From assembly GCF_900129215.1 (NCBI RefSeq), contig NZ_FQUQ01000001.1, positions 62,001 through 126,000 on the forward strand: 64,000 bases of DNA, in the 5' to 3' direction. Position 1 is the stretch's first letter; each line of letters starts with the position of its first letter. The position numbers were made by a program, and so were the translations under genes. The notes beneath the pieces were generated by a model. The model made no database searches and was not told where the DNA came from. It was given only the letters and a program-made list of their open reading frames with translations. Positions 9,097 through 49,496 of the stretch are shown here, piece after piece. This stretch comes from Pedobacter caeni (lineage in GTDB: Bacteria; Bacteroidota; Bacteroidia; Sphingobacteriales; Sphingobacteriaceae).

Positions 9097-12000
9097 TTAA
9101 AGGTTAATTTGTACGCCCAATACAAATACTTTGAGCGGTGGGAGCGTAGTGTAGGCCTGCGTTTCAGGATCGCGACCTTTGTACGAAGTGATGGTAAAAA
9201 GATTTTGAGCAGAGAGGTTTATGACTGCACTTTTTAACCTCAGTTTATCTTTAAAAGCTTTGGGCAGCTGATAAGAAAGGGTTACGTTTTTCGCACGGAT
9301 ATAGGAAGCATCAACATAACTGGCATCGCTTTCTGACCAGGCACCAAAAGCGCGTAAACCTTCAATAGATTGAGTAAAGCGCTGATATTTGGCCTGATCG
9401 CCCGGTTTCTGCCAGCGATCCAGAAATTCAACCGGCACATTGCTCTGACTGGTAAACAGCTGGTCGTAAATGTCAGTACTGAAATATCCCGGTGCATAGT
9501 TTGTCAGACTAATCTTTCCTACCTGTTTAACAAACTGTAAAAAGATATCCAGCTGTAGGTTCTTGTACCTGAAGGTGTTGTTGAAACCTCCAAAATACTT
9601 AGGTAGGGTATTGATAGCCTTCACTTGATACTCACCATATAAATTCACATGATTTCCGGCATCAGAACCTGTAGTGCCATCCTTTTTTAGGGCTGTATAT
9701 AAACCTGTGTTGGGATCAATACCTTTATAGATCCATGCGTAGCTTCTGCCGCTAACAGGCTGTCCAATTTCCAGAATGCCGGCATAGTTTGAATTCTCCA
9801 GGTTGTCAAACTTTACCAGTTTGTTCCGGTTAAAGGAAATGTTAAAAGCGGAACTCCATTCAAAATTTCCTGCTATTACGTTGCGGGTATTTAAAGTCAG
9901 CTCTACACCTGAGTTCTGTACTGTTGCGGGAAAATTATAACTGGGAATACTGCTAAAACCGGTAAATGAAGGTATGGTATAGTTTAGCAATTGATTGGAG
10001 CTGCGATTTCTGTAATATGCCGCTGAAGCAAGAATCCTGTCTTTGAAAAAACCAAGATCCACTGCTACTTCAAATTTGGCGTTTTTCTCCCATGCTACAT
10101 TTGGATTTGACAAAGACCGCGGGGAAAATCCCGTTAGGCCCTGATAGGTGTTTGTACCTCTGCTGGCATACAGATCATAGTAGGCGTAATTACCAATATT
10201 GTCGTTTCCGCTTGTACCGTAACTTGCGCGTAGTTTTCCAACGCTAAGAATGGGAAGCGCATTTTCAATGAAATTTTCTGATGAAAATATCCATGCAGCC
10301 GCTGCGGAATAGAAGTTTCCAAACTGTTTACCAGGGCCAAATTTAGAGGAGCCATCTCTTCTTGCCGTAAAATTGAGGATGTATTTATCGGACAGGTTTG
10401 CATTTAAACGACCATAAACTGCGTTATACTTGTATTGGTATGATCCACCGTCTCCTACGCCAAGCAAACCTGCATTAGCCAAATTACCAATCACGACATC
10501 GCTTACAAAATTTGTCCCCGCAAAGTAATGCCCTTCATTATCTGATTTTTGAAAGGTTGTTCCAGCTAATGCACTTATTTTGACCTCTTTCATTTTTACC
10601 TCATAGCTCAGTTGTGGCTCCACAATCCAGTTTTTTTGCTGATTTATGGTATTGATTAAAGCGGGAACAGAAGCAGCAGAGAGTAGTGAAAGATATAAAG
10701 GGGAGTAAGTTGCTACCGGCTGCTTGATTTTAATATTGCTGTTTAAATTGGTGAATCCCAGGTTTGCTGTAAAGTCAAACCCTTTTGCAATGCGGTAACT
10801 TGGTCTTAAACTGATGATGGTATTATCTGTTTTATTACTATAGGTACGCAGGCTATAAGCGTAAGGGTTATTCGCGTTATCAGAGTTAGGACCGCCAAAA
10901 TTCAGTGTCCCATCTGGGTTAAAAGAATCAGGTGCATTGGGTGCTCTGAGGGTATAGGCAGTCAAATCACTCTGTGAATTCAGGTTGTTATCTTTGAGTA
11001 CACTGCCCGCAAAATCAATCTTCAGTCTTTTGTTCTTCGAATAGCCGGTGATGTTAAAGTTTAGTCCGCCTCTTTGGTCGTCGAATTTACCCGGCGACAG
11101 ATTGCCTTGTCTGTTATAAGTGCCTCTGATGGCATATTGGATACTTTCACTACCTCCGGAAAGAGACAGGTTGGCATTTGTATAGGCTGCAAAATGACCG
11201 ATTAGCTCTTTCTGCCAGTCTGTATTGGTTTCCTGGCCCCAGGTACCATTCACATCATAGTTTGGATCGGCAGGGGAGGTAGCGATATTTGGTACCGGGA
11301 CGCCGTCGTTTTTGAAAGCCTCGCGGCGCATATCAAGATATTGTTGGGCACTCATCAATTGAAGTGGTTTCGGTGCTTGCATAAAGCCTTGGGTAAGGTT
11401 TAAGCCAAGGGACATTTCACCGATCTGACCTTTTTTAGTGGTAATCAAAATTACGCCGTTCCCGCCCCGGGAGCCATAAATTGCCGTAGCATCGGCATCT
11501 TTTAAAACAGAGATACTGGCAATATCATTGGGATTAATATAATTTAAAGGGTTGCCCTGAGGGCTATCCGCTGCAATACCATTGCCTCCATTGTTTCCCA
11601 ATGGATCCATCAATAGTGCAGATTGATAGGGGATACCGTCGATCACAAACAGGGGATTGTTGCCTACCCAATTATTTAGAGAGGACCTTCCACGGATCAG
11701 AATATTCATAGAGCCGTTGGTTACGCCGCTGGTTTGGGTGATCTGCAAACCTGCAACCCTGCCTTGAAGCGCTAGCATAGGGTTAAGCACGGGTTGTTTT
11801 TCAATATCTTTTGCAGTTACTGTTACCGTATTACCAGTAGCTAATTTCTGACTTTCAGTATAATAACCTTTATTAACGATTACTTCAGAAAGCTCATTGG
11901 TGGCCAGGATCAAACGGATGTTAAGCCGCACAGCCGCTTTTACCTCCCGGATCTGATAACCTATGTAACTGATCAGCAGCAACTCATTTTCTTCCACGTT

Positions 12001-12519
12001 TTGCAATTGAAAAGCACCGTCTTTGTCGGTTGTGACAGATCTTTTGCTGCTTTTAATTACAATCGTTGCACCTATCAATGGCTGTCCATTTTCGTCAGTA
12101 ACTTTTCCGGAAATATCAATCGCTTTATAGAACTCAGTTATTTTTTCAAATACAGACTTCTCTTTTTTCCTGATGATGATCGCTTTTTCATCAATCAGAT
12201 AGGTCAAAGATTGATCAGCCAGACACTTCTGCAACACGGTTTCCAATGGCTCATTGCGCACGACAATGCTCACTGGTTTTTTGGTTTCCAGCAAGTTTTT
12301 ATCGTATAGAAAATCGTATCCCGTCTGGTTATGGATTTCCCTGAAAATCTTCTCGAGGGCCGTGTTCTTTTGATTTAATGTAACACGCTGGGCATGTGTT
12401 TTGGCGCTCAGCTGCATTAGTGTAGCTATTAATATTACGGTAGTTAATCGCATAATCAGCCATAGTTTAGCGGCAAGCCGATTGGGCATACCGGGTTTGT
12501 TGGTATAAATTTTATACAT
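9097..12519 (-). CDS. SusC/RagA-family TonB-dependent transporter with STN domain
   Basis: A 1140-residue outer-membrane importer. The ATG at 12519 (MYKIYTNKPG) is preferred over an upstream start because this basic leader is typical of FecR-linked SusC proteins, and because the matching SusC further right starts the same way. Order of parts: signal peptide to about residue 44; STN signalling domain about 50-120 (TALEKIFREIHNQTGYDF); carboxypeptidase-like regulatory domain about 135-215 (GQPLIGATIVIKSS); plug about 220-340 (LFVIDGIPY, ATAIYGSRG, GVILITTKKG); 22-strand barrel to the end (VFVLGVQINL). The STN domain contacts FecR, so ligand transport should trigger the sigma factor upstream. 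An antisense RNA candidate overlaps its leader. Confidence 0.95.
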   Translation of the reverse strand: MYKIYTNKPGMPNRLAAKLWLIMRLTTVILIATLMQLSAKTHAQRVTLNQKNTALEKIFREIHNQTGYDFLYDKNLLETKKPVSIVVRNEPLETVLQKCLADQSLTYLIDEKAIIIRKKEKSVFEKITEFYKAIDISGKVTDENGQPLIGATIVIKSSKRSVTTDKDGAFQLQNVEENELLLISYIGYQIREVKAAVRLNIRLILATNELSEVIVNKGYYTESQKLATGNTVTVTAKDIEKQPVLNPMLALQGRVAGLQITQTSGVTNGSMNILIRGRSSLNNWVGNNPLFVIDGIPYQSALLMDPLGNNGGNGIAADSPQGNPLNYINPNDIASISVLKDADATAIYGSRGGNGVILITTKKGQIGEMSLGLNLTQGFMQAPKPLQLMSAQQYLDMRREAFKNDGVPVPNIATSPADPNYDVNGTWGQETNTDWQKELIGHFAAYTNANLSLSGGSESIQYAIRGTYNRQGNLSPGKFDDQRGGLNFNITGYSKNKRLKIDFAGSVLKDNNLNSQSDLTAYTLRAPNAPDSFNPDGTLNFGGPNSDNANNPYAYSLRTYSNKTDNTIISLRPSYRIAKGFDFTANLGFTNLNSNIKIKQPVATYSPLYLSLLSAASVPALINTINQQKNWIVEPQLSYEVKMKEVKISALAGTTFQKSDNEGHYFAGTNFVSDVVIGNLANAGLLGVGDGGSYQYKYNAVYGRLNANLSDKYILNFTARRDGSSKFGPGKQFGNFYSAAAAWIFSSENFIENALPILSVGKLRASYGTSGNDNIGNYAYYDLYASRGTNTYQGLTGFSPRSLSNPNVAWEKNAKFEVAVDLGFFKDRILASAAYYRNRSSNQLLNYTIPSFTGFSSIPSYNFPATVQNSGVELTLNTRNVIAGNFEWSSAFNISFNRNKLVKFDNLENSNYAGILEIGQPVSGRSYAWIYKGIDPNTGLYTALKKDGTTGSDAGNHVNLYGEYQVKAINTLPKYFGGFNNTFRYKNLQLDIFLQFVKQVGKISLTNYAPGYFSTDIYDQLFTSQSNVPVEFLDRWQKPGDQAKYQRFTQSIEGLRAFGAWSESDASYVDASYIRAKNVTLSYQLPKAFKDKLRLKSAVINLSAQNLFTITSYKGRDPETQAYTTLPPLKVFVLGVQINL

Positions 12520-12522
12520 TTG
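12496..12522 (+). promoter_or_regulatory. Antisense promoter over the susC start codon
   Basis: On the plus strand, opposite to the susC gene, TTTG (12496-12499) and TACATTTG (12515-12522) match the Bacteroidota -33 and -7 boxes. The 15-nt gap is slightly short for the usual range. The -7 box overlaps the susC start codon. The equivalent pair occurs antisense to the second FecR-linked susC. Confidence 0.45.
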
Positions 12523-12528
12523 TTTAGT

Positions 12529-12648
12529 TTGGTTCAAGCGATTGTCTTTTAGTTTCGAAGCCAGAGACAATTGCGGTAAACAGTTGATTAAATTATTGAC
12601 GATGCCAAACATCGACCAATCCCGATCAGCATCGGGATTTGGTTTTTT
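12529..12648 (+). ncRNA. Candidate 120-nt antisense RNA to the susC leader (copy A)
   Basis: From the predicted start near 12529 the plus strand holds a 10-bp stem (GCGATTGTCT at 12538-12547, AGACAATTGC at 12565-12574, one G-T pair) with a 17-nt loop. Next comes the block GGTAAACAGTTGA (12575-12587), then TGCCAAAC (12603-12610), then an 11-bp terminator hairpin and six Ts. The same order, spacing and length recur antisense to the other FecR-linked susC, with different but still pairing stems. It would cover the susC leader and start region. The reverse possibility, a structured 5' leader of the susC mRNA, is not excluded, but the U-run and promoter boxes fit the antisense strand. No transcript evidence is available. 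Confidence 0.5.
12616..12648 (+). terminator. Intrinsic terminator of antisense RNA candidate A
   Basis: Arms CCAATCCCGAT and ATCGGGATTTGG pair over 11 bp with one bulged base and a CAGC loop, followed directly by TTTTTT on the plus strand. No annotated plus-strand gene ends here, which is why an unannotated antisense transcript is proposed. Confidence 0.7.
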
Positions 12649-12651
12649 ACA

Positions 12652-12681
12652 CTAGCTTTCCTGTCGTAAATACTTCTTCAT
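12652..12681 (-). CDS. Possible leader peptide upstream of susC (9 residues)
   Basis: A tiny frame, MKKYLRQES, begins with ATG at 12681 after an AAACCACAAAAC stretch and ends just before the A6-hairpin element, between fecR and susC. The second FecR-linked susC has a comparable MKRASE frame in the same place after AAACCAAATAG. Being so short it could be chance; position in both loci is the only support. Confidence 0.2.
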   Translation of the reverse strand: MKKYLRQES

Positions 12682-12730: not shown

Positions 12731-13894
12731 TTATTTGCTCACGTATATTTTTCTGCCTTCGACACGGAAATGAACAGCGCCCGTTTTTTCCATCAGCCGG
12801 AGTACAGCCGATAGGTTTCTGGATCTGGATAGAAAACCTCCAAAGCGAAAGTTTTCAGGAGCATTTGCTTCATAGATGACATCGACATCGTACCATCTGG
12901 CAATCTTCCGCATATTGGCCTTGAAATCATCATTTTTGAATAGAAACTCGTTGTTTTTCCAGGCTACTGTTTCGTCTGGATCTACCTCATTAACGGTGAT
13001 TTGATTGTTGATCAGAATGGCCTGTTCATTTGGTTTCAGGATTTCCGAACGATCCATGCTGGTTAATCGGATACTCCCTTCCAGTAGTGTTGTTTTTAAG
13101 GCCCTTTCATCACTGTAAGCATTAATGTTAAAATGAGTGCCCAGAACTTCCACTTCTTGTCTGGCACTTCGTACAATAAAGGGATGCATTTTATCTTTTG
13201 AGATTTCAAAATAGCCTTCTCCGGAGAGTTCAACGGAACGTTGTTTGAGACTGGCGAACGATGTAGGGTATTTTAAAGAAGAGGCCGCATTCAGGTAAAC
13301 AACGGAGCCATCTGGCAGGCGTAACCTGGCTTGTTCTCCACGGGCGGTGGTCAGGGTATTAAATTGTAATTTACCAGAATTTTTACTGTTGATTTCATAG
13401 ATAATTTGTCCGTCCGGGCTTTTTGAAATCTGAACACCAGACTGGCTGGCGATGTTCCCGGTGTTGACATCCGTAATCGAAATCTTTTCTCCATTAGCGA
13501 GGGTTAATGTGGCTTTGTTCTTGCCTGGAGATACATCTTGCCGGTAGGCCGTCTCCTGTCTGTTTTGTTCATCAGTTTTATAGAAATAAAGCCCTATGCC
13601 AATGATGATCAGGATGGAAGCAGCAGCAATAAGACGTGGCCAAAGTGGAGTGGATGCTGGTTTTATAGAAGTCCCGGTGCCAAGTACGTTTTTTAAAACA
13701 GCCGCCCTCTGTTGATCGTTCATCCCTTTTTCCTGATGCGGGCGCTCATAATCCTGACCAATTAAGACATCAATTTCATTGGAAAATACCGGATCATTGA
13801 TATAGTCCCATAATTCCTGTTTTTCTTCCCCGGATGCTGTCTTATCTGCATAGTGGTTAAAAAGTTCCCGAAGCCTGTGATTTGTCTTATTCAT
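12731..13894 (-). CDS. FecR-family anti-sigma factor / sigma regulator
   Basis: A 387-residue inner-membrane regulator. The N-terminal cytoplasmic part (about 1-80) binds the sigma factor. A single transmembrane helix lies at about 86-106 (LIAAASILIIIGIGLYFY). The periplasmic FecR domain covers about 125-290, with YRQDVSPGKNKATLTLANG, LPDGSVVYLNAASSLKYP, SVELSGEGYFEISKD and VLGTHFNINAYSDE all standard. A C-terminal DUF4974-type domain at about 315-387 contacts the STN domain of the SusC partner. It lies between its sigma gene and its SusC gene, the normal FecI-FecR-SusC order, and should relay ligand occupancy of SusC to the sigma factor. Confidence 0.94.
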   Translation of the reverse strand: MNKTNHRLRELFNHYADKTASGEEKQELWDYINDPVFSNEIDVLIGQDYERPHQEKGMNDQQRAAVLKNVLGTGTSIKPASTPLWPRLIAAASILIIIGIGLYFYKTDEQNRQETAYRQDVSPGKNKATLTLANGEKISITDVNTGNIASQSGVQISKSPDGQIIYEINSKNSGKLQFNTLTTARGEQARLRLPDGSVVYLNAASSLKYPTSFASLKQRSVELSGEGYFEISKDKMHPFIVRSARQEVEVLGTHFNINAYSDERALKTTLLEGSIRLTSMDRSEILKPNEQAILINNQITVNEVDPDETVAWKNNEFLFKNDDFKANMRKIARWYDVDVIYEANAPENFRFGGFLSRSRNLSAVLRLMEKTGAVHFRVEGRKIYVSK

Positions 13895-14020: not shown

Positions 14021-14611
14021 TTATTTGTATAGCGCCAGGATTAACATCGGATATAATACCGCATGCTTTCTAAAATGCGCTCGGATTTTGTTTAAGGCTT
14101 GTTTCATATGGACTCTTACCGTTTCGGTAGAAATATTCATTTCTTTGGCTGCTTCTTCGTATTTCATCCCTTCCTGATGGCAGAGCTTATAGGCTATTTT
14201 CTGCTGCGGTGCGAGTTCTGTCAGGGCCTCATTCAAAATATGGATGGCATCCTGATAATCCAGCAGCTGTCTGGTAGAATCATCGAATTCTGTGCTGGCA
14301 CTTTGAAGCTTAACATGTGATTCGTTTTCCTGGGAAAGTTGTTTCAGCACATCAAACACGTGGTTCCGAACAACTCTGTTTAAGTAAGCACCGAAGTTAT
14401 TGATGGTTTTGAGCCGCTCTCGTCCAATCCATATCTTGATAAAGATATCCTGAACAACTTCAAGGGCATCATCTTCAGAAGGAGTTAGTCGTCTGCTATG
14501 AACAAATACATCTTTTTGATAATGGTTAAATAAAATGGTAAACGCAAACTGATCGCCCTCAGCTATTTTAGTCAATATGTCTGATTCATTCTGAAGGGGG
14601 GGGACTGCCAT
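14021..14611 (-). CDS. FecI-like ECF sigma factor (Bacteroidota SusC/D-linked type)
   Basis: A 196-residue sigma factor. Region 2 shows EVVQDIFIKIWIGRERL and NFGAYLNRVVRNHVFDVL; region 4 shows LAPQQKIAYKLCHQEGMKYEEAAKEMN followed by the recognition helix ISTETVRVHMKQALNKIR. It heads the FecR-SusC-SusD-thioredoxin block on the minus strand and should activate it once FecR signals. An eight-base C homopolymer occupies codons 3 to 6 (14603-14596 on the coding strand), where slippage would put the whole protein out of frame. The last residues (HAVLYPMLILALYK) form the short hydrophobic tail common in this subgroup. Confidence 0.93.
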   Translation of the reverse strand: MAVPPLQNESDILTKIAEGDQFAFTILFNHYQKDVFVHSRRLTPSEDDALEVVQDIFIKIWIGRERLKTINNFGAYLNRVVRNHVFDVLKQLSQENESHVKLQSASTEFDDSTRQLLDYQDAIHILNEALTELAPQQKIAYKLCHQEGMKYEEAAKEMNISTETVRVHMKQALNKIRAHFRKHAVLYPMLILALYK

Positions 14612-17090: not shown

Positions 17091-17242
17091 TCTGGCTATA
17101 ACCAGTCACATCCCAATATGATATAACCTCATTTCAGTGGTGCTGCCGGTAGCTGAATTAAATTTATGTTTAAACTTTATTTTACCAAAATATATGTCCC
17201 TGGACCCTGTTTAAATTTTCGCGGAGTTGTTATTTTCATCAA

Positions 17243-17274
17243 TTTGGTTCGCTATGTAATTATTGTTAGTTTAG
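17243..17274 (+). promoter_or_regulatory. Promoter of the second FecI-type sigma gene
   Basis: TTTG (17243-17246) and TAGTTTAG (17267-17274, one mismatch to TAnnTTTG) are 20 nt apart, normal Bacteroidota spacing. The predicted start is near 17280, which supports the ATG at 17292 as the true translation start rather than the longer frame from 17166. Confidence 0.45.
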
Positions 17275-17291
17275 CACAACCAAATATCCTA

Positions 17292-17885
17292 ATGAGTTTT
17301 ATTTGCCTGATCAATGAGAAAGAGCTAATGGAAAACCTGCAAAGCGGGGATGAAAAAGCCTTTGAAAAACTTTACAGGCATTATGTCGATCCGATTTTCC
17401 GGAAGATCCATTATCTGACCAAATCGGCTGAAATCGCGGAAGAGCTTACGCAAGATGTATTTTTGAAGATATGGGAACGCAAAGCCGCAATAGACCCCAG
17501 TAGGTCTTTTGGTGCATTTGTTCATCGCATTGCTCAGAATTTAGTTGTTGATCTGTATCGCAGGCTGGCACATGATAAGGTTTTACGCGAACATCTGATC
17601 AATTCAGTTTCTGAACTGTATGATCCAATGGCTGATCATGTTGATCGCCAATTAGTTTATCAGGCACTCGAGTCTTTACCGGCACAGCGCAAAAAGATTA
17701 TGGCGATGGTGAAGATTGAGGGCAGATCTTATGAAGAGGTGAGCAACCTGCTTGGTATATCAACCTCAACAATACGTGATCATGTTGTAAAAGGTACCAA
17801 AAGCCTGAAAATCTATTTCATGGAAAATGGGGTGACATTGATGCTCCTTGTCGCGGCCATGATTGCCAGATCAGTAAAACACTAG
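17292..17885 (+). CDS. FecI-like ECF sigma factor
   Basis: A 197-residue sigma factor from the ATG at 17292 (MSFICLINEKEL). Region 2 is seen in EKLYRHYVDPIFRKIHYLTK, AEELTQDVFLKIWERK and FGAFVHRIAQNLVVDLYRR. Region 4 is seen in LPAQRKKIMAMVKIEGRSYEE with the recognition helix ISTSTIRDHVVKGTKSLK. A short hydrophobic tail (TLMLLVAAMIARS) closes it. It opens the block sigma-FecR-SusC-SusD-(unknown Tat protein)-GH2 and is expected to activate it when FecR is signalled by the loaded SusC. A Bacteroidota-type housekeeping promoter lies just upstream of the start. Confidence 0.93.
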   Translation: MSFICLINEKELMENLQSGDEKAFEKLYRHYVDPIFRKIHYLTKSAEIAEELTQDVFLKIWERKAAIDPSRSFGAFVHRIAQNLVVDLYRRLAHDKVLREHLINSVSELYDPMADHVDRQLVYQALESLPAQRKKIMAMVKIEGRSYEEVSNLLGISTSTIRDHVVKGTKSLKIYFMENGVTLMLLVAAMIARSVKH

Positions 17886-17956
17886 GCAAAAAATATATAT
17901 CATACGAGCAGACCTAATTGCCGCTTCGTTCGTACTCTTTAAAAAACCAGATAAAA

Positions 17957-19135
17957 TTGGCTGCAAGAGAAAACCTGAACGAACTTTACAAGCGATTTTT
18001 GCGTAAAGAAAGTAATCCCGAAGATATCCGTCTTTTAACAGAATTATTCGGTACCACAGAACACCGTATTTTAGAGGATATGGTTCGTGAGCAATTGGAC
18101 GATCCATCTGCTATTGAACCATATCACCCCGAAAATAACGAACGGTATGAGCGTATGTTCAACAACCTGAAACAACAGCTTAAACCCGTCAGGAAGGCCA
18201 AAAAACTGTGGATAAAAGTTTCTGCAGCGGCGAGTGTGATCCTGGTGATGGCAGCCGGGGGTTATTTCCTCTTACGGGATCCTATGCCAGATCCGGTCAT
18301 TGCCCGGCAGAAGATCCACAACGACATCAAACCGGGAGGTAATAAAGCATACCTGATTCTATCAGACGGTAAAAGCATCGATTTAACTGAACAGCACACG
18401 GGGGTTATCGGAAAAGATGTAGGGAAAAGCATTTTGAAAACAGCTGACGGGGGGATTGAATATGTGAACAGGCATGGTCATCCTATCGCTGCTCACAATG
18501 CTTTTAATACACTACGTACACCTAATGGCGGCCATTACAAGGTGGTTTTAGCCGATGGTACCAAGGTATGGCTCAACGCCGCATCCCAGCTAAAATATCC
18601 TGCAGATTTCAAAAACCTGAAGGAACGTAAAATTGAGTTAATGGGTGAAGCTTATTTTGAAGTAGCTAAAGATCCTGCCCATCCTTTTATCGTTCAAACA
18701 GACGACCAGCAAATCAGGGTATTGGGAACCCACTTTAATGTAAATTCTTATCATGACGACGGTGGAAGCAAAACCACCTTGCTGGAGGGAAGTATCCGTG
18801 CTGTGGGTAAACATGCCGAAGTCATGGTTAAGCCCGGACAACAAGTGATCAGCAACAGTACCGGCCAGCTAAAAGTTGACGATGCTGATATGGAGCTGGC
18901 GGTAGCCTGGAAGAACGACCAGTTCATGTTTGAAAGTGAGCCTGTCAGACCACTCATGAAAAAGGTGGCCCGCTGGTATGATGTGGAAGTTATCTACAAT
19001 GCAGATGTCCCGGATGTACGCTTCAATGGTGCAATTTCAAAGTTCGAAAATATATCAGCAGTACTTAAAATACTGGAGAATACGGGGAAGGTACATTTTG
19101 AGGTGAGGGGCCGAAAAGTTTACGTAACAAAATAA
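17957..19135 (+). CDS. FecR-family anti-sigma factor / sigma regulator
   Basis: A FecR protein of about 392 residues. No ATG is available in the N-terminal part. The frame opens with TTG at 17918 or, more likely, TTG at 17957 (M-AARENLNELYKRFL), since homologous N-termini begin near there. The transmembrane helix is at about 86-104 (VSAAASVILVMAAGGYFLL). The periplasmic FecR domain follows with IKPGGNKAYLILSDG, LADGTKVWLNAASQLKYP, IELMGEAYFEVAKD and VLGTHFNVNSYHDD. A DUF4974-type end (about 320-392) reaches KVYVTK. It transduces the signal from the STN domain of the SusC downstream to the sigma factor upstream. Confidence 0.92.
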   Translation: MAARENLNELYKRFLRKESNPEDIRLLTELFGTTEHRILEDMVREQLDDPSAIEPYHPENNERYERMFNNLKQQLKPVRKAKKLWIKVSAAASVILVMAAGGYFLLRDPMPDPVIARQKIHNDIKPGGNKAYLILSDGKSIDLTEQHTGVIGKDVGKSILKTADGGIEYVNRHGHPIAAHNAFNTLRTPNGGHYKVVLADGTKVWLNAASQLKYPADFKNLKERKIELMGEAYFEVAKDPAHPFIVQTDDQQIRVLGTHFNVNSYHDDGGSKTTLLEGSIRAVGKHAEVMVKPGQQVISNSTGQLKVDDADMELAVAWKNDQFMFESEPVRPLMKKVARWYDVEVIYNADVPDVRFNGAISKFENISAVLKILENTGKVHFEVRGRKVYVTK

Positions 19136-19186: not shown

Positions 19187-19207
19187 ATGAAAAGAGCATC
19201 AGAATAG
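19187..19207 (+). CDS. Possible leader peptide upstream of susC (6 residues)
   Basis: MKRASE, starting with ATG at 19187 after AAACCAAATAGAAG, sits between fecR and the A6-hairpin element, matching a 9-codon frame in the first FecR-linked susC leader. Too short to judge by coding content. Confidence 0.18.
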   Translation: MKRASE

Positions 19208-19216
19208 AACTGTATT

Positions 19217-19250
19217 AAAAAAGAACAGGGCCCGATCAGATCGGGCCCTG
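19217..19250 (-). terminator. Intrinsic terminator of antisense RNA candidate B
   Basis: A perfect 12-bp inverted repeat (CAGGGCCCGATC and GATCGGGCCCTG around one central base) is followed on the minus strand by TTCTTTTTT. On the plus strand the hairpin has only an A-run before it and no U-run after it, so it is oriented to stop antisense transcription and not the fecR-susC mRNA. Confidence 0.7.
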
Positions 19251-19335
19251 CAAGCCGTTTGGCACAATTTACTTTATTCAACTGTTTACCAGCAACTGCC
19301 TTCGCCTGGAAAGTAAGGGCATGTTGCATCACCAA
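19217..19335 (-). ncRNA. Candidate 119-nt antisense RNA to the susC leader (copy B)
   Basis: On the minus strand, from a predicted start near 19335: a 9-bp stem with one bulge (GCAACATGCC at 19327-19318, GGCAGTTGC at 19300-19292) and a 17-nt loop; the block GGTAAACAGTTGA (19290-19278); TGCCAAAC (19264-19257); a perfect 12-bp hairpin; then TTCTTTTTT. Copy A upstream of the other FecR-linked susC has identical blocks, equal loop length and nearly equal total length, while the stem sequences have changed on both sides together. That pattern suggests selection on RNA structure. The RNA would pair with the susC leader and ribosome-binding region. Existence of the transcript is inferred only from sequence. 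Confidence 0.5.
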
Positions 19336-19341
19336 ACAAAA

Positions 19342-19369
19342 CAAATGTATAGAATTTATATCATTCAAA
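19342..19369 (-). promoter_or_regulatory. Antisense promoter over the second susC start codon
   Basis: Minus-strand TTTG (19369-19366) and TACATTTG (19349-19342), 16 nt apart, match the -33 and -7 boxes and overlap the susC ATG at 19345. The layout is the same as at the first FecR-linked susC. Part of the match could reflect the conserved start context ACAAATGTA of these genes. Confidence 0.45.
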
Positions 19370-22300
19370 CCGGTATAGCCGGAAGGCTATTACCCAAACT
19401 ATGGCTGATTATGAGACTTACCGTCATCATCATGATTGCTTCTTTAGTGCAGGTGAGCGCCACCTCGTTGGCACAGAGGATAACTATAAATAAAACAAAT
19501 AAAAACCTGATCAGTGTACTCAAGGATGTGCGAAAGCAAACCGGATACAATTTTGTGATCACTGATGATCAGGCAGAAAAAAGCAGACCAGTTACTTTAA
19601 ACGTATCTCAGAGACAACTGCATCAGGTACTGGATGAGCTGTTCAGCTCGCAACCACTCAGTTATAAAATCGATAACAAAACCATCGTAGTATATGATAA
19701 AAATGTGACCAATATTTCAGCATCAGCGGCTTCAGTTATTATAGAAATACATGGTCTTGTCAGCGATGAAAATCATCAACCCATACCTGGCGTTACGATC
19801 AGGCATAAAGAGAGCGGTGCAGCTGTTTCCACCAACCCAAAAGGGGAGTATATGATCAAAATACCCAACGCTAGCGGAACCTTAACATTTTCTTTTGTAG
19901 GGTATCAGTCGAAGGAAATAGCTGTGAATAATCAAACACAGATAGATGTTACGCTTAACGCTACACCAAGTAACCTGAACGAAATAGTGGTTATCGGATA
20001 TGGTACACGTAAGAAAGAGGCTGACCTTACCGGATCGGTATCCCGTATCAACGGCGATAAGATCCAAAACCGGCCGGTTACCGGAACCCTAGATGGTTTG
20101 CAAGGCCTGATACCAGGTGTGGCGATTACGCGGTCAGGCGGTCAGCCGGGTCAGCAAGGCTTTGCACTTGCGATCCGCGGATCGTCGTCCATTAATGGTA
20201 ATGTTCCGCTTGTATTAATTGATGGTATTCCAGGTGATCTTACACTGATCAATCCGGAGGATATTCAGGATGTTACCGTGCTAAAAGATGCAACTGCAGC
20301 AATATACGGCGCACGTGCTGCTGATGGGGTGATTCTGGTTACGACCAAAAGAGGTAAACGGTCCGGCACACCAAGCATAAGCTATGGATTTAATTTGGCG
20401 GTTAAGAAAGTTGGCTTAAGAAAAAAGGCAGCTACGACAGATCATTTTGTCAGGATGTTTAATGAGGCCAATAGAAACGACGGGGAAAAGCAAACATTCT
20501 CTGATGCTACGCTGGAGAAGATCGCAGCCAATGATCCGGGGGTTGGCCCTGGTGAAAACCGTAGTTTGGAATCTTTCCCCATGTTCTATCAAAACAAGGA
20601 TTGGTATGGCAGGCTATTTAAAACCGCATATCGCCCTATGCACAATATCAGCGTATCCGGTGGTGGTGAAAACTCATCTTACCTTGTTTCTTTTGGCGAC
20701 ATCCGTGATAACGGCAACATTTCAGAAGGAAAGAACAGTTCTGTACGGGACAATCTCCGCATTGCATTGCAGAGTAACATTACCAGCAACCTGAAGCTGG
20801 AACTGACAACGGCATACGACTATCTCAATACCCGTACACCCTCGCAGCTGCACGATGCCATTAGTAATGGTTTAAAAATGTTCTCTTATCTGCCCGAAAA
20901 AAATCCGGCAGGAAATTACTTCGGCTATCAGGGTTATGAGAATCCTGTGCAGGAATTAATTAAAGGGGGAGAAGAGACGATGACCAACAACCGCTGGAAC
21001 AACAATGTAAAGCTGGATTTTGAGCCCATCAAGAACTTGGTATGGACGGGACAGGTTGGTATCAACCTGGAGCGTATGGATAACGACGCTAACTATAAAA
21101 CCAATACAGAGTATAACTGGGACAATACCCCTAACTTGCTGATACGTAATAATCCAAACAGGGCTACCTTCAGGAACTCAAGCACGGTTTACAAAAATTA
21201 CAGTACCTATGTGAATTACTCCAAAACGTTTGGACAGCACGAGATAAAAGCAATGATAGGTGCCTCACAAGAAAAATTCACTCAGGATTCCAGATATATT
21301 CAGGGGCAGGATTTTTTCAGCAATGAGATTTTTAGGCTGCCTTTATCAAACAGTAAGAACCTGCGGGCGGGGGATGCAAAAGACTGGAACAGAGATCCAT
21401 GGGCTTTGCAGTCTTATTTTGGTCGCGCCAGTTATGCTTTCGCCGGCAAATATTACCTGGAAGGAACCCTTCGTAAAGACGGAAGTTCAAAGTTCTCTCC
21501 CGATAAACGCTGGAGTTCAATTTATCCAAGTTTGTCTGTCGCATGGAAAATTTCAGAGGAGTCATTTTTTAAGCAACTGGTTAGCAACGATAAAGTCAAC
21601 CTTTTCAAGCTGCGCGCATCCTGGGGCCGCACGGGCAATCAGGATATTTCACAGTTAGGGTTATTTGATTATGTACAGCTCATTAATGTTTTTGGCCAGT
21701 ACCCGATTGACGGCTCTTCGGCCGCAAGATTAGCGGCACTGAAAGGACTTTCTTCACCATCGCGTACATGGGAGACCATCGAAACAGAGAACCTTGGTGT
21801 AGACCTTGGATTATTTGCATCCAAACTGTCTTTATCGTTTGATCTGTACAGAAAAACCAATAACAACATGCTGGTGAGCATTACTTATCCGACCACACTG
21901 GGTGCGGCTGCACCAACCTCGAATGCAGGAACACTTAAGGGTAAAGGCTGGGAATTTAATGGGCAATGGAATGACAAGATCGGTAGTTTTCAATATAACA
22001 TCGGTACCATCTTGAATTACAATACAAACGTCGTTTCTGATCTGAAAGGAAATGACAATTATAACCTCGGCTTAACACAGGCCAGACAAGGATATCCGCT
22101 AAATTCCTATTTTGGATTTAAGGGTAAGCTGATCAGAAATCAGGCCGACCTTGATGCTTATGCTGCAAAGTACGGCGGAAAAGGCATCGTGCCATCTGCA
22201 CAGCCTAATGGCCATGGCGGTTTAGGCATTGGTGATGTCATGTATGAAGATATTGATGGCGACGGACAGATCACTACCTATGGCGACAAATCGAAGGGGC

Positions 22301-22875
22301 TAAATGGTGATGCCGTATACCTGGGTTCCCAGATCCCCAAATTAACCTACAGTGTTACAGGCGGATTTTCATACAAGGGTTTAGACATGAGTTTCATTAT
22401 GCAGGGAACCGGTGATAAATATGAATGGAGAGGTAATGGAAACTTCGGTGTGCCTTTGGCTCACTTCTGGTTCCAGCCCCTGGATTATTTTTACGGAAGA
22501 ACCTTCACCCCAGAAAATCCATCGGCCCAATACCCGCGCCTTTCTAATAACGAAACGGTGAAGAATAACAATTATCAGTTCTCGTCCATGTGGCTGGAAA
22601 ATACACGCTATCTGAGGATGAAAAATATCACCATTGGCTATACCTTCAGTGATCTCCAGGTTGCGCGTATTAAAGTGCGTAGTATCCGGGTTTATGTTAG
22701 CGGACAGGACTTGTTTGAATTTGCAAAGGGCACCTGGAAAGGAACCTATGATCCCGAAGAAAGCCGCACACCTACAATCGCGGATGATGCAGGCAAAATG
22801 GATTTCTATAATTTCTATGAGAACAACTACCCAATGTACCGTACTTTTTCTGTAGGACTAAATGTTAAATTTTAA
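19345..22875 (+). CDS. SusC/RagA-family TonB-dependent transporter with STN domain
   Basis: A 1176-residue importer from the ATG at 19345 (MYRIYIIQTGIAG). Parts in order: signal peptide to about 44; STN domain about 50-120 (LISVLKDVRKQTGYNFV, QLHQVLDELFSSQPLSYKI); carboxypeptidase-like domain about 135-215 (HQPIPGVTIRHKESG); plug about 225-340 (EIVVIGYGTRKKEADLTGSV, LVLIDGIPGD, ATAAIYGARAADG); barrel to the final SVGLNVKF. It is linked to FecR and a sigma factor upstream and to SusD, a Tat-exported protein and a GH2 enzyme downstream, so it probably imports an oligosaccharide that the GH2 enzyme further trims. Confidence 0.95.
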   Translation: MYRIYIIQTGIAGRLLPKLWLIMRLTVIIMIASLVQVSATSLAQRITINKTNKNLISVLKDVRKQTGYNFVITDDQAEKSRPVTLNVSQRQLHQVLDELFSSQPLSYKIDNKTIVVYDKNVTNISASAASVIIEIHGLVSDENHQPIPGVTIRHKESGAAVSTNPKGEYMIKIPNASGTLTFSFVGYQSKEIAVNNQTQIDVTLNATPSNLNEIVVIGYGTRKKEADLTGSVSRINGDKIQNRPVTGTLDGLQGLIPGVAITRSGGQPGQQGFALAIRGSSSINGNVPLVLIDGIPGDLTLINPEDIQDVTVLKDATAAIYGARAADGVILVTTKRGKRSGTPSISYGFNLAVKKVGLRKKAATTDHFVRMFNEANRNDGEKQTFSDATLEKIAANDPGVGPGENRSLESFPMFYQNKDWYGRLFKTAYRPMHNISVSGGGENSSYLVSFGDIRDNGNISEGKNSSVRDNLRIALQSNITSNLKLELTTAYDYLNTRTPSQLHDAISNGLKMFSYLPEKNPAGNYFGYQGYENPVQELIKGGEETMTNNRWNNNVKLDFEPIKNLVWTGQVGINLERMDNDANYKTNTEYNWDNTPNLLIRNNPNRATFRNSSTVYKNYSTYVNYSKTFGQHEIKAMIGASQEKFTQDSRYIQGQDFFSNEIFRLPLSNSKNLRAGDAKDWNRDPWALQSYFGRASYAFAGKYYLEGTLRKDGSSKFSPDKRWSSIYPSLSVAWKISEESFFKQLVSNDKVNLFKLRASWGRTGNQDISQLGLFDYVQLINVFGQYPIDGSSAARLAALKGLSSPSRTWETIETENLGVDLGLFASKLSLSFDLYRKTNNNMLVSITYPTTLGAAAPTSNAGTLKGKGWEFNGQWNDKIGSFQYNIGTILNYNTNVVSDLKGNDNYNLGLTQARQGYPLNSYFGFKGKLIRNQADLDAYAAKYGGKGIVPSAQPNGHGGLGIGDVMYEDIDGDGQITTYGDKSKGLNGDAVYLGSQIPKLTYSVTGGFSYKGLDMSFIMQGTGDKYEWRGNGNFGVPLAHFWFQPLDYFYGRTFTPENPSAQYPRLSNNETVKNNNYQFSSMWLENTRYLRMKNITIGYTFSDLQVARIKVRSIRVYVSGQDLFEFAKGTWKGTYDPEESRTPTIADDAGKMDFYNFYENNYPMYRTFSVGLNVKF

Positions 22876-32079: not shown

Positions 32080-35000
32080 ATGAATATGAGTACCATAAAC
32101 AATACTTGTAAGCGCTATTTGAAGGCCACCACACTCCATGCATTACGTGTTTCTATTATAGCCTTTATCCCATTTTTATCGGTCCAGAATTGCTTTGGAG
32201 CCAGTCAGCAAAACCCCTCAACTACTACGAAGGCCCTGAGCGATTCGACCGGAATACTTATTTCCGGTTTGGTAAGGGATAGCGATTCCAAACTATTGGC
32301 AAGGGCAACCGTTTCTGAAAAAAACGGGAAAAATGCGAGCATCACAGATACAGAGGGTAAGTTTTCCCTGAGGGTATCCAATCCAAATGCGGTCTTGAAA
32401 GTTACCTATCTGGGGCTGGAAACAAGAGAAGTACCCCTAAATTCCCGGCGTTTTTTACAGATTGTATTGAACGCATCCCAGAGCAAGCTTGATGAAGTCG
32501 TGATCATCGGTTATGGAACAAGTGATAAGAAAAACCTGACGGGCTCCTTCAGTAGCTTAAAGGGGGAGGACATCAAAAGCGCCACTGCTACCTCTTTTGT
32601 AGATGCGTTACAGGGTAAGGTCGCGGGCGTGAGGGTCAATTCCCAATCTGGCGAACCGGGGGCTGGAGTGAGTGTGGAAATCAGAGGTGGAAATTCGATC
32701 AATGGCGCATCCTCTCCATTATATGTGATTGATGGTGTGCAGATTGAAATGCAGGAATCTGAGGTGGCGTCATCAAAGGTTGGCGGACGTACAACCTTAA
32801 ATCCGCTATCAACAATCAGTCCTGATCAAATTGCTTCCATTGATATCCTCAAAGATGCCTCGGCAACTGCAATATACGGGGCCAGAGGGGCAAACGGAGT
32901 GATTATAGTGACTACGAAATCCGGTAAATCCGGCTCAAAGCCTGTATTTAACCTGAGCTCCTCTTATGCCTCCTCCGAAATCACAAAAAAGATCGATGTA
33001 TTGGGTGCTCAGGATTACGTCCAGTACCGCTTTTTGAAATCGCCCAATGATAGGGGCTTTGGAACAGATCTGGATAATGATGGCGTACCGGATGTGGTTA
33101 AGGATGTAAGTGGCTTGGAGAGCTATGATTGGCAGGATGTTGTTTTCAGGAGAGGTGCGACACAGAAATACAATCTTTCCGGACAGGGAGGATCAAATTC
33201 ATCTGGTTATTCCTTCGGTTTGGGATATTCTGATCAGGATGCACTGGTAATCAACAATAATTTTAAAACCTATTCTGCCCGTTTCCAATATAACCATAGA
33301 GTTTCCGATAAATTTGATTTTAGCCTGACCGCCAATTGGGGTAAAACCAAAAATAGCGGAGTGGCATCGAGTGGAGGGGGCGAAGGCAATTTCTCAGGCC
33401 TGATACAGGCTGCCTATACCTTCCAGCCTGTGCTGATCAAGGCGGCAGATGATCCCTTTCCACCTGTTTCCCTAATGGATCAACTTCTTAATTCCTACAA
33501 GCTTACAGATTTTGACAGGCTGATAGGTAACGCGAACCTTACTTATGCATTCACTAAAAAATTAAAACTGAGAGTAAGCGGAGGAGGTGGAGCCACTTCG
33601 TCAAAACTCTCTGAATTTTACGGAAAAAATACCCTTTGGGGGCAACAGGATAATGGAAAGGCCAACAATAACCATACGCAAACCGGAAATTATCAGGCCA
33701 ATAGCACGCTGGACTACTGGACTGAAACGGGCAAGCGACAGGTGCTAAAAGCGATGATAGGGGCAGAATTCAATTCCTATAATTACGAAAATTTCGGGAC
33801 CACAATCTCAAATTTCCAGGATCAGTCAACGGGAGTTTTCAATCTTTCCAAAGGATTAACACCAGGATTTCCCAGCTCAAATTTTATTGAGCAAAATCGC
33901 ATCTCCTTTTTTAGCAGAGTCAACTATGATATTCGCAATAAATATCTTTTCACTGCCACATTGAGAAATGACAATTCATCTCAATTAGGTCCGGGAAACA
34001 GATCGGCTTTTTTCCCTTCTGCCGCTTTTGCATGGCGCATTAAAGAAGAGAAATTTCTTAAAAATAATCAAATCGTTTCGGATCTGAAGTTAAGGCTAAG
34101 CTATGGAGTAACTGGAAATGACAGGATTCCGGCCTATAGATTTTTGTCCGAGCTCGGTACAACAAGCTATGCCGGTAACGGGAATGTACGATTTGGATTG
34201 TCTCCGGTTTCCTCCGAAAATCTAAATCTAAAATGGGAATCAACCGGACAATATGATGTTGGTCTGGACCTCTCCTTATTTAACAACCGGGTTAATATGA
34301 CTGCTGATATCTATTATAAATCCACAAAAGATCTGTTATTACTTTCAGAAGTTGCTTCACAAACAGGATTTCCGACCCAATGGCAGAATATTGGGGAAAT
34401 AAGCAATAAAGGGTTGGAAATAGCCATCAACTCCGTAAATATCAAGACCACAGATTTTAAATGGAATACTACTTTCAACATTGCTTTTAACAGAAATAAG
34501 ATCGTCAGTTTAGGTGGAACAGAATCCAAACCTGTGATTTTTAATAATGGTTACATCAACAATGTTGGAATCGTGAAGGAAGGCCAGCCCATAGGGACAG
34601 CTTTTGGCTATGAATGGGATGGTATTTACCAGATCAATGATTTTACCTGGCAAAACAATAGTGATCAGACAATTCCACACCAGTCGAGGACTTACACCCT
34701 CAGGAATGGCGTTACCGGTATTTCCGGAGCACAGCCAGGATTGTTTAAATATAAAGATCAGAACGGCGATGGAATTATCAATGCATCAGACCGGACAGTG
34801 ATCTCCAATAGTAATCCAAAGTTTAGTGGTGGATTCTCCAGCAATTTTACATTCAGGAATTTCTCTCTGAATGCTTTTTTTGAAGGGGCATATGGTAATC
34901 AGATCTTTAATGAATTTCCTACACGGGTAGAATCAGGGAGCGGACAGGTATCCTTTAATCTGACCCAGCAATATTGGGACAACCGATGGACACCTGAAAA

Positions 35001-47815: not shown

Positions 47816-49396
47816 ATGAACGGACTAACCAGAGGCATTGCCGCTTTATTGATGATTTTATTTTTTTGCACGAGCTGTAAGGTACAAAAGCAAAAAGTAC
47901 CTGCCAATGAAGTCATGTATCATGTTTTTCAGCGCAGTTTTTACGATGCAAACGGAGATCAGCATGGTGACCTGAATGGCCTGAGGGAAAAACTGGGCTA
48001 TTTGCAGGACCTGGGGATCACCTCCATTTTAATGACCCCGCTATATGAATCCGTATACTACCATAATTACTACTCCAGCAATTTCGACAAGATCGATCCA
48101 CGCTATGGCAGCATGAAAGACTATATCGACCTGGTAAAGGAGATCCATAAAAGAGGCATGAAGATCTATATGGATATGGAAACCCAATATGTTACAGAAG
48201 ACCATCCCTGGTACAAGGAATCATTAAATAACCCATCATCAAAATATTCGGACTATATCCTTTACGACGATAAAGCACAAAGTAAACCTTCCTCCATCGT
48301 TTACAACATCACAGAATTGAAAGGGTATGATGGCACTGTACGGAAAATTACCACGGTTAACTTAAACAGTAAAGCCGTTCATGAATACAATTATAAGTTG
48401 TTTAAATTCTGGCTCGATCCCAATGGCGATGGTAAGTTTGATGATGGTGTAGACGGTTACCGCCTGGACCATATGATGGACGATCTGGATAATAAAAAGC
48501 GGCTAAGTAATCTTTTTGCCACCTTCTGGGTGCCGCTCATTAACAAATTAAAGCAGATCAACCCTAAGCTGACCATTATGGCCGAACAGGCCAACTGGGC
48601 ATCCTATGGAATAGACTACCTCGAAAAGGCGGCGGTCGACCGTGTTTTTGCTTTCCGCATCCAACAGGCCATCCCTTCCTTTAACAAAGAAAAGATTGCA
48701 GCATATGCTGATACTACTTTTGCCAGGACCCCGGCAAACAAGCAGCAGGTCGTTTTTATTGAAAACCATGACATTGCCAGGTTCGGCACTGTTGTCAAAC
48801 AAAGCCCGGGAAAAGAGCGTGTGGGGGCTGCGCTGAACCTGCTGATTGGAGGAGTGCCCTCTATTTATTACGGACAGGAAATTGGCATGCTGGGCGACAC
48901 CTGGTTTGGGAAATATGGTGGCATTACCGATGCCAATGAGATCCCTTCGAGAGAAGCTTTTGAATGGTATAAAAATGCCGAAGGTAAAGGCATGGCCTTC
49001 TGGTACAAAAACACTGGCCCATGGTGGGATACCAGCACTGTGAAAAGTAGCGATGGCATTTCTTATGAAGAGCAGAAAAACAATCCCGCTTCACTGTGGA
49101 ATTTCTACAGGCAACTGATCGCGTTAAGAAAAGCGAATGCCGGCCTTGTTAACGGCGCTTATAAAACCTTAGTCAACAACAATAAACAAGTGTATACTTT
49201 TAGCAGGGGCCAGGGTAAAGATCAGGTGTTTGTGGCGGTAAACCTGTCTGATCAGGAACAGCAATTTAATATAACCGGTTCGGGTTCGGGTAAACTGAAC
49301 CAGCAATTTGGAGTTGGGGAGCTCAGATTGAATACTGATAAAATTGAAGCCAGCATACCTGCCTATGGGCTGCAGGTTTGGCGTATTGAAGATTAA
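47816..49396 (+). CDS. GH13 alpha-amylase-family lipoprotein
   Basis: A 526-residue lipoprotein (lipobox FFCTSC, C21) with the (beta/alpha)8 amylase barrel. All three catalytic acids are seen: nucleophile D218 in GYRLDHMM, acid/base E257 in IMAEQANW and transition-state D319 in IENHDIARF. The early conserved part is DLNGLREKLGYLQDLGITSI. The C-terminal beta domain starts at about 440. It resembles the SusG/SusA-like neopullulanases or amylases that cut alpha-1,4-glucans at the cell surface or in the periplasm. The SusC-SusD-SusE-GH65 genes follow at once, so it is the chain-cutting enzyme of the locus. Confidence 0.93.
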   Translation: MNGLTRGIAALLMILFFCTSCKVQKQKVPANEVMYHVFQRSFYDANGDQHGDLNGLREKLGYLQDLGITSILMTPLYESVYYHNYYSSNFDKIDPRYGSMKDYIDLVKEIHKRGMKIYMDMETQYVTEDHPWYKESLNNPSSKYSDYILYDDKAQSKPSSIVYNITELKGYDGTVRKITTVNLNSKAVHEYNYKLFKFWLDPNGDGKFDDGVDGYRLDHMMDDLDNKKRLSNLFATFWVPLINKLKQINPKLTIMAEQANWASYGIDYLEKAAVDRVFAFRIQQAIPSFNKEKIAAYADTTFARTPANKQQVVFIENHDIARFGTVVKQSPGKERVGAALNLLIGGVPSIYYGQEIGMLGDTWFGKYGGITDANEIPSREAFEWYKNAEGKGMAFWYKNTGPWWDTSTVKSSDGISYEEQKNNPASLWNFYRQLIALRKANAGLVNGAYKTLVNNNKQVYTFSRGQGKDQVFVAVNLSDQEQQFNITGSGSGKLNQQFGVGELRLNTDKIEASIPAYGLQVWRIED

Positions 49397-49496
49397 ATCA
49401 TACCTGTAAGAAGGATTTTTGTCGGGCCCGGTTTTGGGTTGCTGACGGCCAGCTTATGCTTAAAAATATAGCCAAATATAGATTAAACCTTAGTGT

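Follow-up and report, generated by a model that had tools for sequence, protein, structure and literature searches.

The window, i.e., the whole stretch of 64,000 nucleotides that was analyzed, contains two loci of the sigma/anti-sigma type. Based on Pfam matches, the genes for an ECF sigma factor and a FecR protein lie upstream of susC at both copies, and a susD gene lies downstream of both susC copies. Opposite each susC leader lies a compact element, which is predicted to encode an antisense RNA. In the lists below H0 denotes the helix that is formed by the 5' end of this RNA and SL1 the stem-loop that H0 encloses. The features of copy 2 are:

17166..17885, + strand: ECF sigma factor gene (Pfam Sigma70_r2, Sigma70_r4_2)
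17918..19135, + strand: fecR (Pfam FecR, FecR_C)
19217..19337, - strand: predicted antisense RNA of 121 nt, opposite the susC leader from -8 to -128, with its +1 at 19337, the G of GUUUGG
19217..19225, - strand: T-tract TTCTTTTTT of the antisense terminator
19226..19250, - strand: terminator hairpin, 12 bp
19256..19261, - strand: H0 3' strand CCAAAC, within the TGCCAAAC block (19263-19256)
19278..19290, - strand: GGTAAACAGTTGA block, with no pairing common to six folded sequences
19292..19327, - strand: SL1, GCAAC(A)TGCC/GGCAGTTGC, 5+4 bp with a bulged A and a 17-nt loop
19332..19337, - strand: H0 5' strand GUUUGG, partner of 19256-19261
19342..19349, - strand: antisense -7 box TACATTTG, enclosing the susC start codon (ATG 19345-19347)
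19345..22875, + strand: susC (Pfam STN, CarbopepD_reg_2, Plug; scanned from the upstream in-frame ATG at 19321), start MYRIYI

The features of copy 1, which is read in the opposite direction, are:

14021..14611, - strand: ECF sigma factor gene (Pfam)
12731..13894, - strand: fecR (Pfam)
12527..12648, + strand: predicted antisense RNA of 122 nt, opposite the leader of this susC
12616..12648, + strand: terminator hairpin (12616-12642) and T-tract (12643-12648)
12603..12610, + strand: TGCCAAAC block, with the H0 3' strand CCAAAC (12605..12610) inside it
12575..12587, + strand: GGTAAACAGTTGA block
12538..12574, + strand: SL1, GCGATTGTCT, a 17-nt loop and AGACAATTGC, with a 10-bp stem that has one G.U
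12527..12532, + strand: H0 5' strand GUUUGG
12515..12522, + strand: antisense -7 box TACATTTG, enclosing the susC start codon (CAT 12517-12519)
9097..12519, - strand: susC (Pfam; scanned from the upstream in-frame ATG at 12612), start MYKIYT

An earlier note on this DNA described the same parts in the same order at both loci, and all of them were found when we read the two copies on both strands. The two SusC proteins are diverged, as was also stated, with 27% identity over the full length, and the likeness of the two leaders therefore does not come from a recent duplication. Among named organisms, the closest relatives of SusC come from Mucilaginibacter and Pedobacter hartonius, and the element of one genome of the window's genus (G370, row L184) is identical to the P. 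hartonius element (row L092), which makes Pedobacter the probable genus. For copy 2 the +1 was derived from a -7 box placed at -12 to -5 and the 3' end was taken as the end of the T-tract (19217); with this box position the predicted lengths are 121 nt (copy 2) and 122 nt (copy 1), which replace the approximately 119 nt proposed before. In both window copies the predicted +1 is the G of GUUUGG. The conserved blocks are identical in the two copies, as claimed, and the exact GGTAAACAGTTGA is confined to these two sites in the whole window. This identity does not extend to four orthologues, which vary in both blocks: the first is GGTTAAACAG, GGTGAAACAG or GGTTAAACGC and the second GCGCCAAAC, GCGTCAAAC or GAGCCAAAC. 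The exact motif pair was tried as a definition of the family and occurs twice in the 7.83 Mb genome (22 contigs) and in 0 of 200 other genomes of the family; it was replaced by covariance models because it is too strict. A middle hairpin between GGTAAACAGTTGA and TGCC appears in single-sequence folds, is inconsistent in the six-sequence alignment and was dropped.

The element begins with a promoter-like box. The available text of a study on Flavobacterium psychrophilum gives the sigma-A consensus as TAnnTTTG at -12 to -5 (PMC9723704), and TAnnTTTG is found in 74 of the 83 rows of our alignment. In 65 of the 75 box-bearing aligned sequences (of 83) the predicted +1 falls on the first base of H0 or within one nucleotide of it. 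The claim that the box lies over the start codon holds for the subclass of the window copies, whereas the commonest other class has a box that overlaps the ATG by a single A. Among the 46 units found in this genome by the loose test described below, one A is shared in 26 and the entire ATG is within the box in 10; copy 2 belongs to the latter class, though our script anchored it at the upstream ATG. At one of the best-scoring model matches (L186) the N-terminal extension of SusC is out of frame and the box is intact. The fixed box across two frame classes, together with the intact L186 box, argues for selection on the DNA motif itself in addition to the codons. When no terminator is demanded, the box is found at the start of 52/86 FecR-linked susC, 1/28 other susC and 4/146 generic ORFs. 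A -33 TTTG box upstream of the -7 box showed no enrichment in the 46 units. At the other end of the element the T-tracts are imperfect, with at least 6 T in the last 9 nt in 49 of 83 rows and at least 5 T in 75.

The place, the orientation, the predicted fold and the conservation of the element are established by computation. The stems differ between the two loci yet pair, as the earlier note had seen, and the same holds across 81 distinct sequences, where 512 cells are double-changed against a shuffle mean of 154. In the alignment (A4; 83 rows, 81 distinct sequences) each of the 31 pairs has changed on both sides, and 90.2% of the cells are paired. The score is 0.546 compared with 0.183 in shuffles and 0.06-0.11 in slid registers, in which 33-43% of cells pair, and 0 of 500 shuffles reach any of five measures, for which we claim no probability because the shuffles take no account of relatedness and the rows were aligned by fitting them to the structure. 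It was this alignment that revealed H0, the 5'-end helix that the earlier reading missed; family-wide, 6/6 of its pairs are double-changed and 94.4% of its cells pair. The two outer helices of SL1 are paired in 90.1% and 91.2% of cells and, taken together with H0, have 15/15 double-changed pairs; a compensatory change is seen in L091, where GCAAC/GTTGC becomes GCAGC/GCTGC. In the terminator both sides have changed in 12/12 pairs. The two inner SL1 helices, which pair in 58.5% and 83.8% of cells, are weak, and gaps affect the SL1 pairs in 14-22 of the 81 rows.

In order to assign the fold to a strand we compared G.U pairs with A.C pairs as read in the antisense strand, where an A.C would be a G.U in the sense strand. 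In all 83 rows the ratio of G.U to A.C is 53:2 for H0, 104:23 for SL1 and 131:14 for the terminator. Model building used the antisense strand and so biases towards G.U there; in 42 distinct sequences outside the model the ratios are 30:2, 39:11 and 78:12; with MAFFT alignments made on either strand (55 sequences) they are 23-24:2, 27:14-15 and 68-84:6-8, respectively. Based on these counts H0 and the terminator look clearly selected in the antisense RNA, while the preference of SL1 is modest. The earlier assignment of the structure to the antisense strand is favoured by the wobble asymmetry and by the orientation of the T-tract, and less so by SL1.

Two covariance models were used for the distribution. 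R1 was built from the two window copies and four orthologues, and it finds the element in at least 90/145 genomes of the genus, with as many as 17 matches in a genome (E<=0.01); 41 aligned R1 matches have changes on both sides in 24/25 pairs. R2, the model that includes H0, finds it in at least 141/251 genomes and at least 14/25 genera of the family (E<=0.001). In the class R2 matches at least 6/247 genomes (E<=0.01), of which four, the window's genome among them, belong to its own family, and since few class genomes match, R2 is nearly bound to the family. All of these are lower bounds, as the large searches scored the best 22 and 12 candidates per genome under stricter filters. R2 matches copy 2 at 19218-19359 (142.2 bits) and copy 1 at 12505-12649 (118.8 bits), both of which are in its training set. 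In its own genome R2 gives 28 matches at E<=1, of which 27 are in FecR-susC leaders (coordinates compared by hand), and of the 20 outside the training set 19 are in such leaders. The element is thus a paralogous class and is not restricted to two loci, as the first description had it. Among 56 further loci (L184-L239), which are the best-scoring matches from the genus, family and class searches and do not cover the context of weak matches, all 56 match a FecR profile on the upstream side and a SusC profile on the downstream side, and 55 have an in-frame ATG at the box, the exception being L186; these context profiles were made from FecR tails and SusC N-terminal parts of the own genome. Two weak matches away from susC, C11:136752 (R2, 30.6 bits) and C17:619427 (R1, 19.4 bits), were rejected, as the ORFs there are not susC starts, and an R1 match at C11:81226 (+) is the reverse strand of the hairpin of copy 2 itself. 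In a phylum sample of 29 loci (one per genome), a box followed by an antisense terminator 60-200 nt on was found in 3/5 loci of the own family and in 2/24 outside it (L150, L153), and several more loci had, by hand count, a terminator without the box. By eye, a different hairpin in antisense orientation, followed by a T-rich tail, can be seen at about the position of the element in five loci (L093, L094, L095, L097 and L099); their hosts, in Flavitalea, Chitinophagaceae and other bins, carry distant SusC relatives (64-70% identity).

How general the element is at FecR-linked susC genes of this genome was addressed by a loose test, in which a unit requires TAnnTTTG on the antisense strand close to the start of susC and, 60-200 nt downstream of it, an intrinsic terminator on that strand. 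Scoring the best 150 of 166 FecR_C candidates, which may undercount, gave at least 103 FecR_C matches; 16 lie in frames of SusC length, the other 87 were taken as FecR genes and, after L019 was removed before counting (no susC lies beside its fecR), 86 leaders remained. At least 87 such matches in one 7.8-Mb genome amount to a large set of transporters linked to sigma/anti-sigma control. As controls we used 28 susC genes that were judged by position not to be FecR-linked, among the best 56 of 265 TIGR04056 candidates, and generic ORFs, which are mechanical ORFs of at least 200 aa from twelve 20-kb stretches and not annotated genes. Units were found in 46/86 FecR-linked leaders, 0/28 other susC and 0/143 generic ORFs (Fisher 4.9e-8 for 46/86 vs 0/28). 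In the sense orientation there are 0/86 units, and in each of 10 shuffles 0-2/86. The predicted RNA is 78-128 nt long in 33/46 units, its ends being predicted.

The unit depends on the gap between fecR and susC, with 45/64 leaders positive when the gap is at least 95 nt and 1/22 when it is shorter. The earlier note tied the element to FecR-type loci and held that other FecR-linked leaders lacking it would speak against its reading. The tie is upheld by the comparison with the other susC genes, and leaders of that kind were in part found: 40/86 fail the loose test, 21 with a gap below 95 nt and 19 despite having room. Since these leaders fail, the FecR link is strong but not obligatory. The two FecR-free susC genes of the window were said to have no such element. 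At 32080 there is neither a box nor a terminator; at 49497 a loose box-plus-terminator lookalike was found, which has no R2 match and is probably due to chance. It lies at 49348-49480 (-), its box is 16 nt upstream of the start and its hairpin is inside the preceding alpha-amylase gene. The 49497 gene is outside the 28-gene control set, and counting it the control becomes 1/29. The closed 5' end was assessed in the same 46 units by pairing the first 26 nt after the box with the stretch before the terminator of the same or of other loci: own partners give -11.9 kcal/mol and mismatched partners -8.4 kcal/mol, and 0 of 200 re-pairings are as low. Because own-partner pairing beats the re-pairings, the closed 5' end seems to be a general feature of the class within this genome.

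The mechanism that in our judgement probably fits these data is that the element is a putative gene of about 120 nt for a cis-antisense RNA that would repress the susC opposite to it in the manner of DonS; its transcription, its start site and its effect are predictions from the sequence analysis. A sigma-A-type -7 box that includes the susC start codon would direct transcription that starts 8 nt before the ATG, at the G of GUUUGG. The RNA would run back across the susC leader and end at its own terminator ahead of fecR. SL1 would be enclosed by a predicted helix between the 5' end of the RNA and the CCAAAC that immediately precedes the terminator. Such an RNA could pair with the susC leader from -8 to -128, near the site of ribosome recruitment, which may block translation, expose the mRNA to decay, or both. 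The diverged stems might make each copy specific to its own susC. By this route, leaky or post-induction expression of susC would be lowered while the sigma/anti-sigma pair is off. The negative sign of the regulation is likely but not certain, because DonS acts negatively whereas the correlation of antisense RNAs with PUL expression is sometimes positive. A wider possibility, which we put forward as speculative and rather doubtful, is that throughout the family many sigma/anti-sigma transporters carry a tailored antisense brake of about 120 nt, with the promoter in the start codon and the 5' end folded onto the base of the terminator. The fold would be kept by compensation while the copies diverge to suit their own transporters, giving dozens of orthogonal switches per genome, and the closed 5' end might be a handle for a chaperone or for cross-talk.

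Other explanations can be considered for the same features. One option is transcription interference, in which a polymerase that starts at the start codon collides with the sense polymerase, the RNA is a by-product and only a terminator that protects fecR is needed. A box phased to the start codon and a terminator between the box and fecR would suffice for this. Yet, covariation in H0 and in the two outer SL1 helices is as good as in the terminator, and a by-product needs no such pairs; we therefore regard this option as unlikely. Another option is that the fold belongs to the sense mRNA, as a leader attenuator or a riboswitch-like structure, with an incidental antisense promoter and terminator. 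The sense strand does fold well, below dinucleotide shuffles with z of -3.99 and -4.06, compared with -2.98 (copy 2) and -5.14 (copy 1) for the antisense strand, and in six sequences the consensus energies of sense and antisense are about equal (-31.6 and -31.1 kcal/mol). It is the wobble asymmetry, which favours the antisense strand, and the T-tract on the antisense side, with 0/86 sense units, that leave this option with little credence.

It may also be suggested that the RNAs form a trans-acting family like FopS, where each RNA uses the shared GUUUGG against CCAAAC near many susC starts and thereby acts on many susC genes. With 0.89-0.98 per column, GUUUGG belongs to the best-conserved segments, and the available text on FopS describes sRNAs that bind susC translation starts in trans (PMC11697453). 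In the element, however, GUUUGG is already engaged in H0, full complementarity is confined to cis and both SL1 and the terminator diverge between loci, and we judge a trans-acting family improbable. A mobile or DNA-binding repeat (REP-like or an operator) with no role as RNA is in our view largely refuted and hardly credible. The many copies per genome would agree with it, and so may the two weak matches of the own genome that are away from susC starts, but the place and the orientation are fixed in 56/56 loci, a T-tract is present and G.U pairs are retained. The idea of the earlier note that the structure might spread as a unit is not shown by these data, as the orthologous susC genes of four other genomes retain the element in place. 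Element identity follows SusC identity modestly (Spearman 0.355, 3319 pairs).

A cis-antisense RNA opposite susC is a kind that is already published for Bacteroides. The DonS family of PUL-associated cis-antisense RNAs of Bacteroides was reportedly described by Cao et al. in 2016, and the DonS PUL itself is presumably under sigma/anti-sigma control. Structured antisense RNAs of plasmids and transposons (CopA, RNA-OUT) have stem-loops that change along with their cis target; their hosts, targets and biology are different from those of the window element, and we note a resemblance only. In its available text PMC7366714 presents DonS as a family of antisense RNAs of 78-128 nt with a negative effect on susC homologues and reports a canonical sigma-A promoter with 52% of the cis-antisense RNAs of B. 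thetaiotaomicron. For the same species 32 PUL-associated antisense RNAs were listed, and in one dataset positive as well as negative correlation with PUL expression was seen (PMC10994844, accessible part). The accessible part of PMC11697453 describes the mechanism of DonS as unknown and host-glycan PULs as typically under sigma/anti-sigma control.

The RNAs of the window resemble DonS in being antisense to the 5' ends of susC homologues, as are those of the 56/56 further loci, in their predicted lengths of 121 and 122 nt, which are within the 78-128 nt given in the available text for DonS, and in lying next to ECF sigma and fecR genes. For a sigma-A-type promoter the signs are mixed, with TAnnTTTG present and no -33 box enriched. 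The RNAs of the window differ in coming from another family of the phylum, the two being compared by description only, and in their covarying fold and a promoter that is tied to the start codon, which are not mentioned in the accessible parts of the DonS literature searched. The element also has some likeness to FopS/GibS of B. thetaiotaomicron, which form a multicopy sRNA family with a terminal terminator hairpin and of which FopS targets susC translation starts. FopS is trans-acting, about 65-70 nt long and has a single-stranded 5' seed (PMC11697453, available text), whereas the predicted window RNA is cis-encoded, about 120 nt long and has a 5' end predicted to be paired in H0, so that it has neither the length nor the seed of FopS. 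A search of the window against Rfam 15 gave nothing at gathering, and the weak matches at E<=10 were all unrelated; FopS is said to be in Rfam in the same available text, its presence in the Rfam 15 set used here being unconfirmed. In the accessible parts of the literature searched (including PMC2864571), with the original DonS description outside this scope, no covarying fold is given for PUL antisense RNAs and none is reported from this family. Relative to those parts, the covarying fold, the start-codon-locked promoter and the family-wide spread are new, and the element likely adds a new branch, a structured one, to the DonS-type antisense RNAs.

A covarying fold that a model can recognize gives the PUL antisense RNAs a defined structure, and the covariation indicates selection on the RNA product and not on antisense transcription alone. 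Both the distribution and the mechanism become testable across environmental Bacteroidota, and the two loci of the window, as a diverged pair with their own stems each, are suited for specificity tests.

Some additional observations concern the same leaders. The FecR-linked SusC proteins have an N-terminal extension (MYKxYT... or MKxNAFNLGMP...) ahead of the second Met of a typical signal peptide, which in the window is seen at the 5' ends of susC, e.g., 19345-19410 and 12450-12519, and inverted repeats can be seen by eye inside this extension, upstream of the antisense box. A short sense ORF of 3-9 codons that starts with MK(K/R), possibly a leader peptide, is found in the gap between fecR and susC; in the window it is MKRASE at 19187-19207 (+) in copy 2 and MKKYLRQES at 12652-12681 (-) in copy 1. 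Such an ORF is present in 18/70 leaders with a gap of at least 60 nt, compared with a mean of 1.93 and a maximum of 7 in shuffles (n=100).
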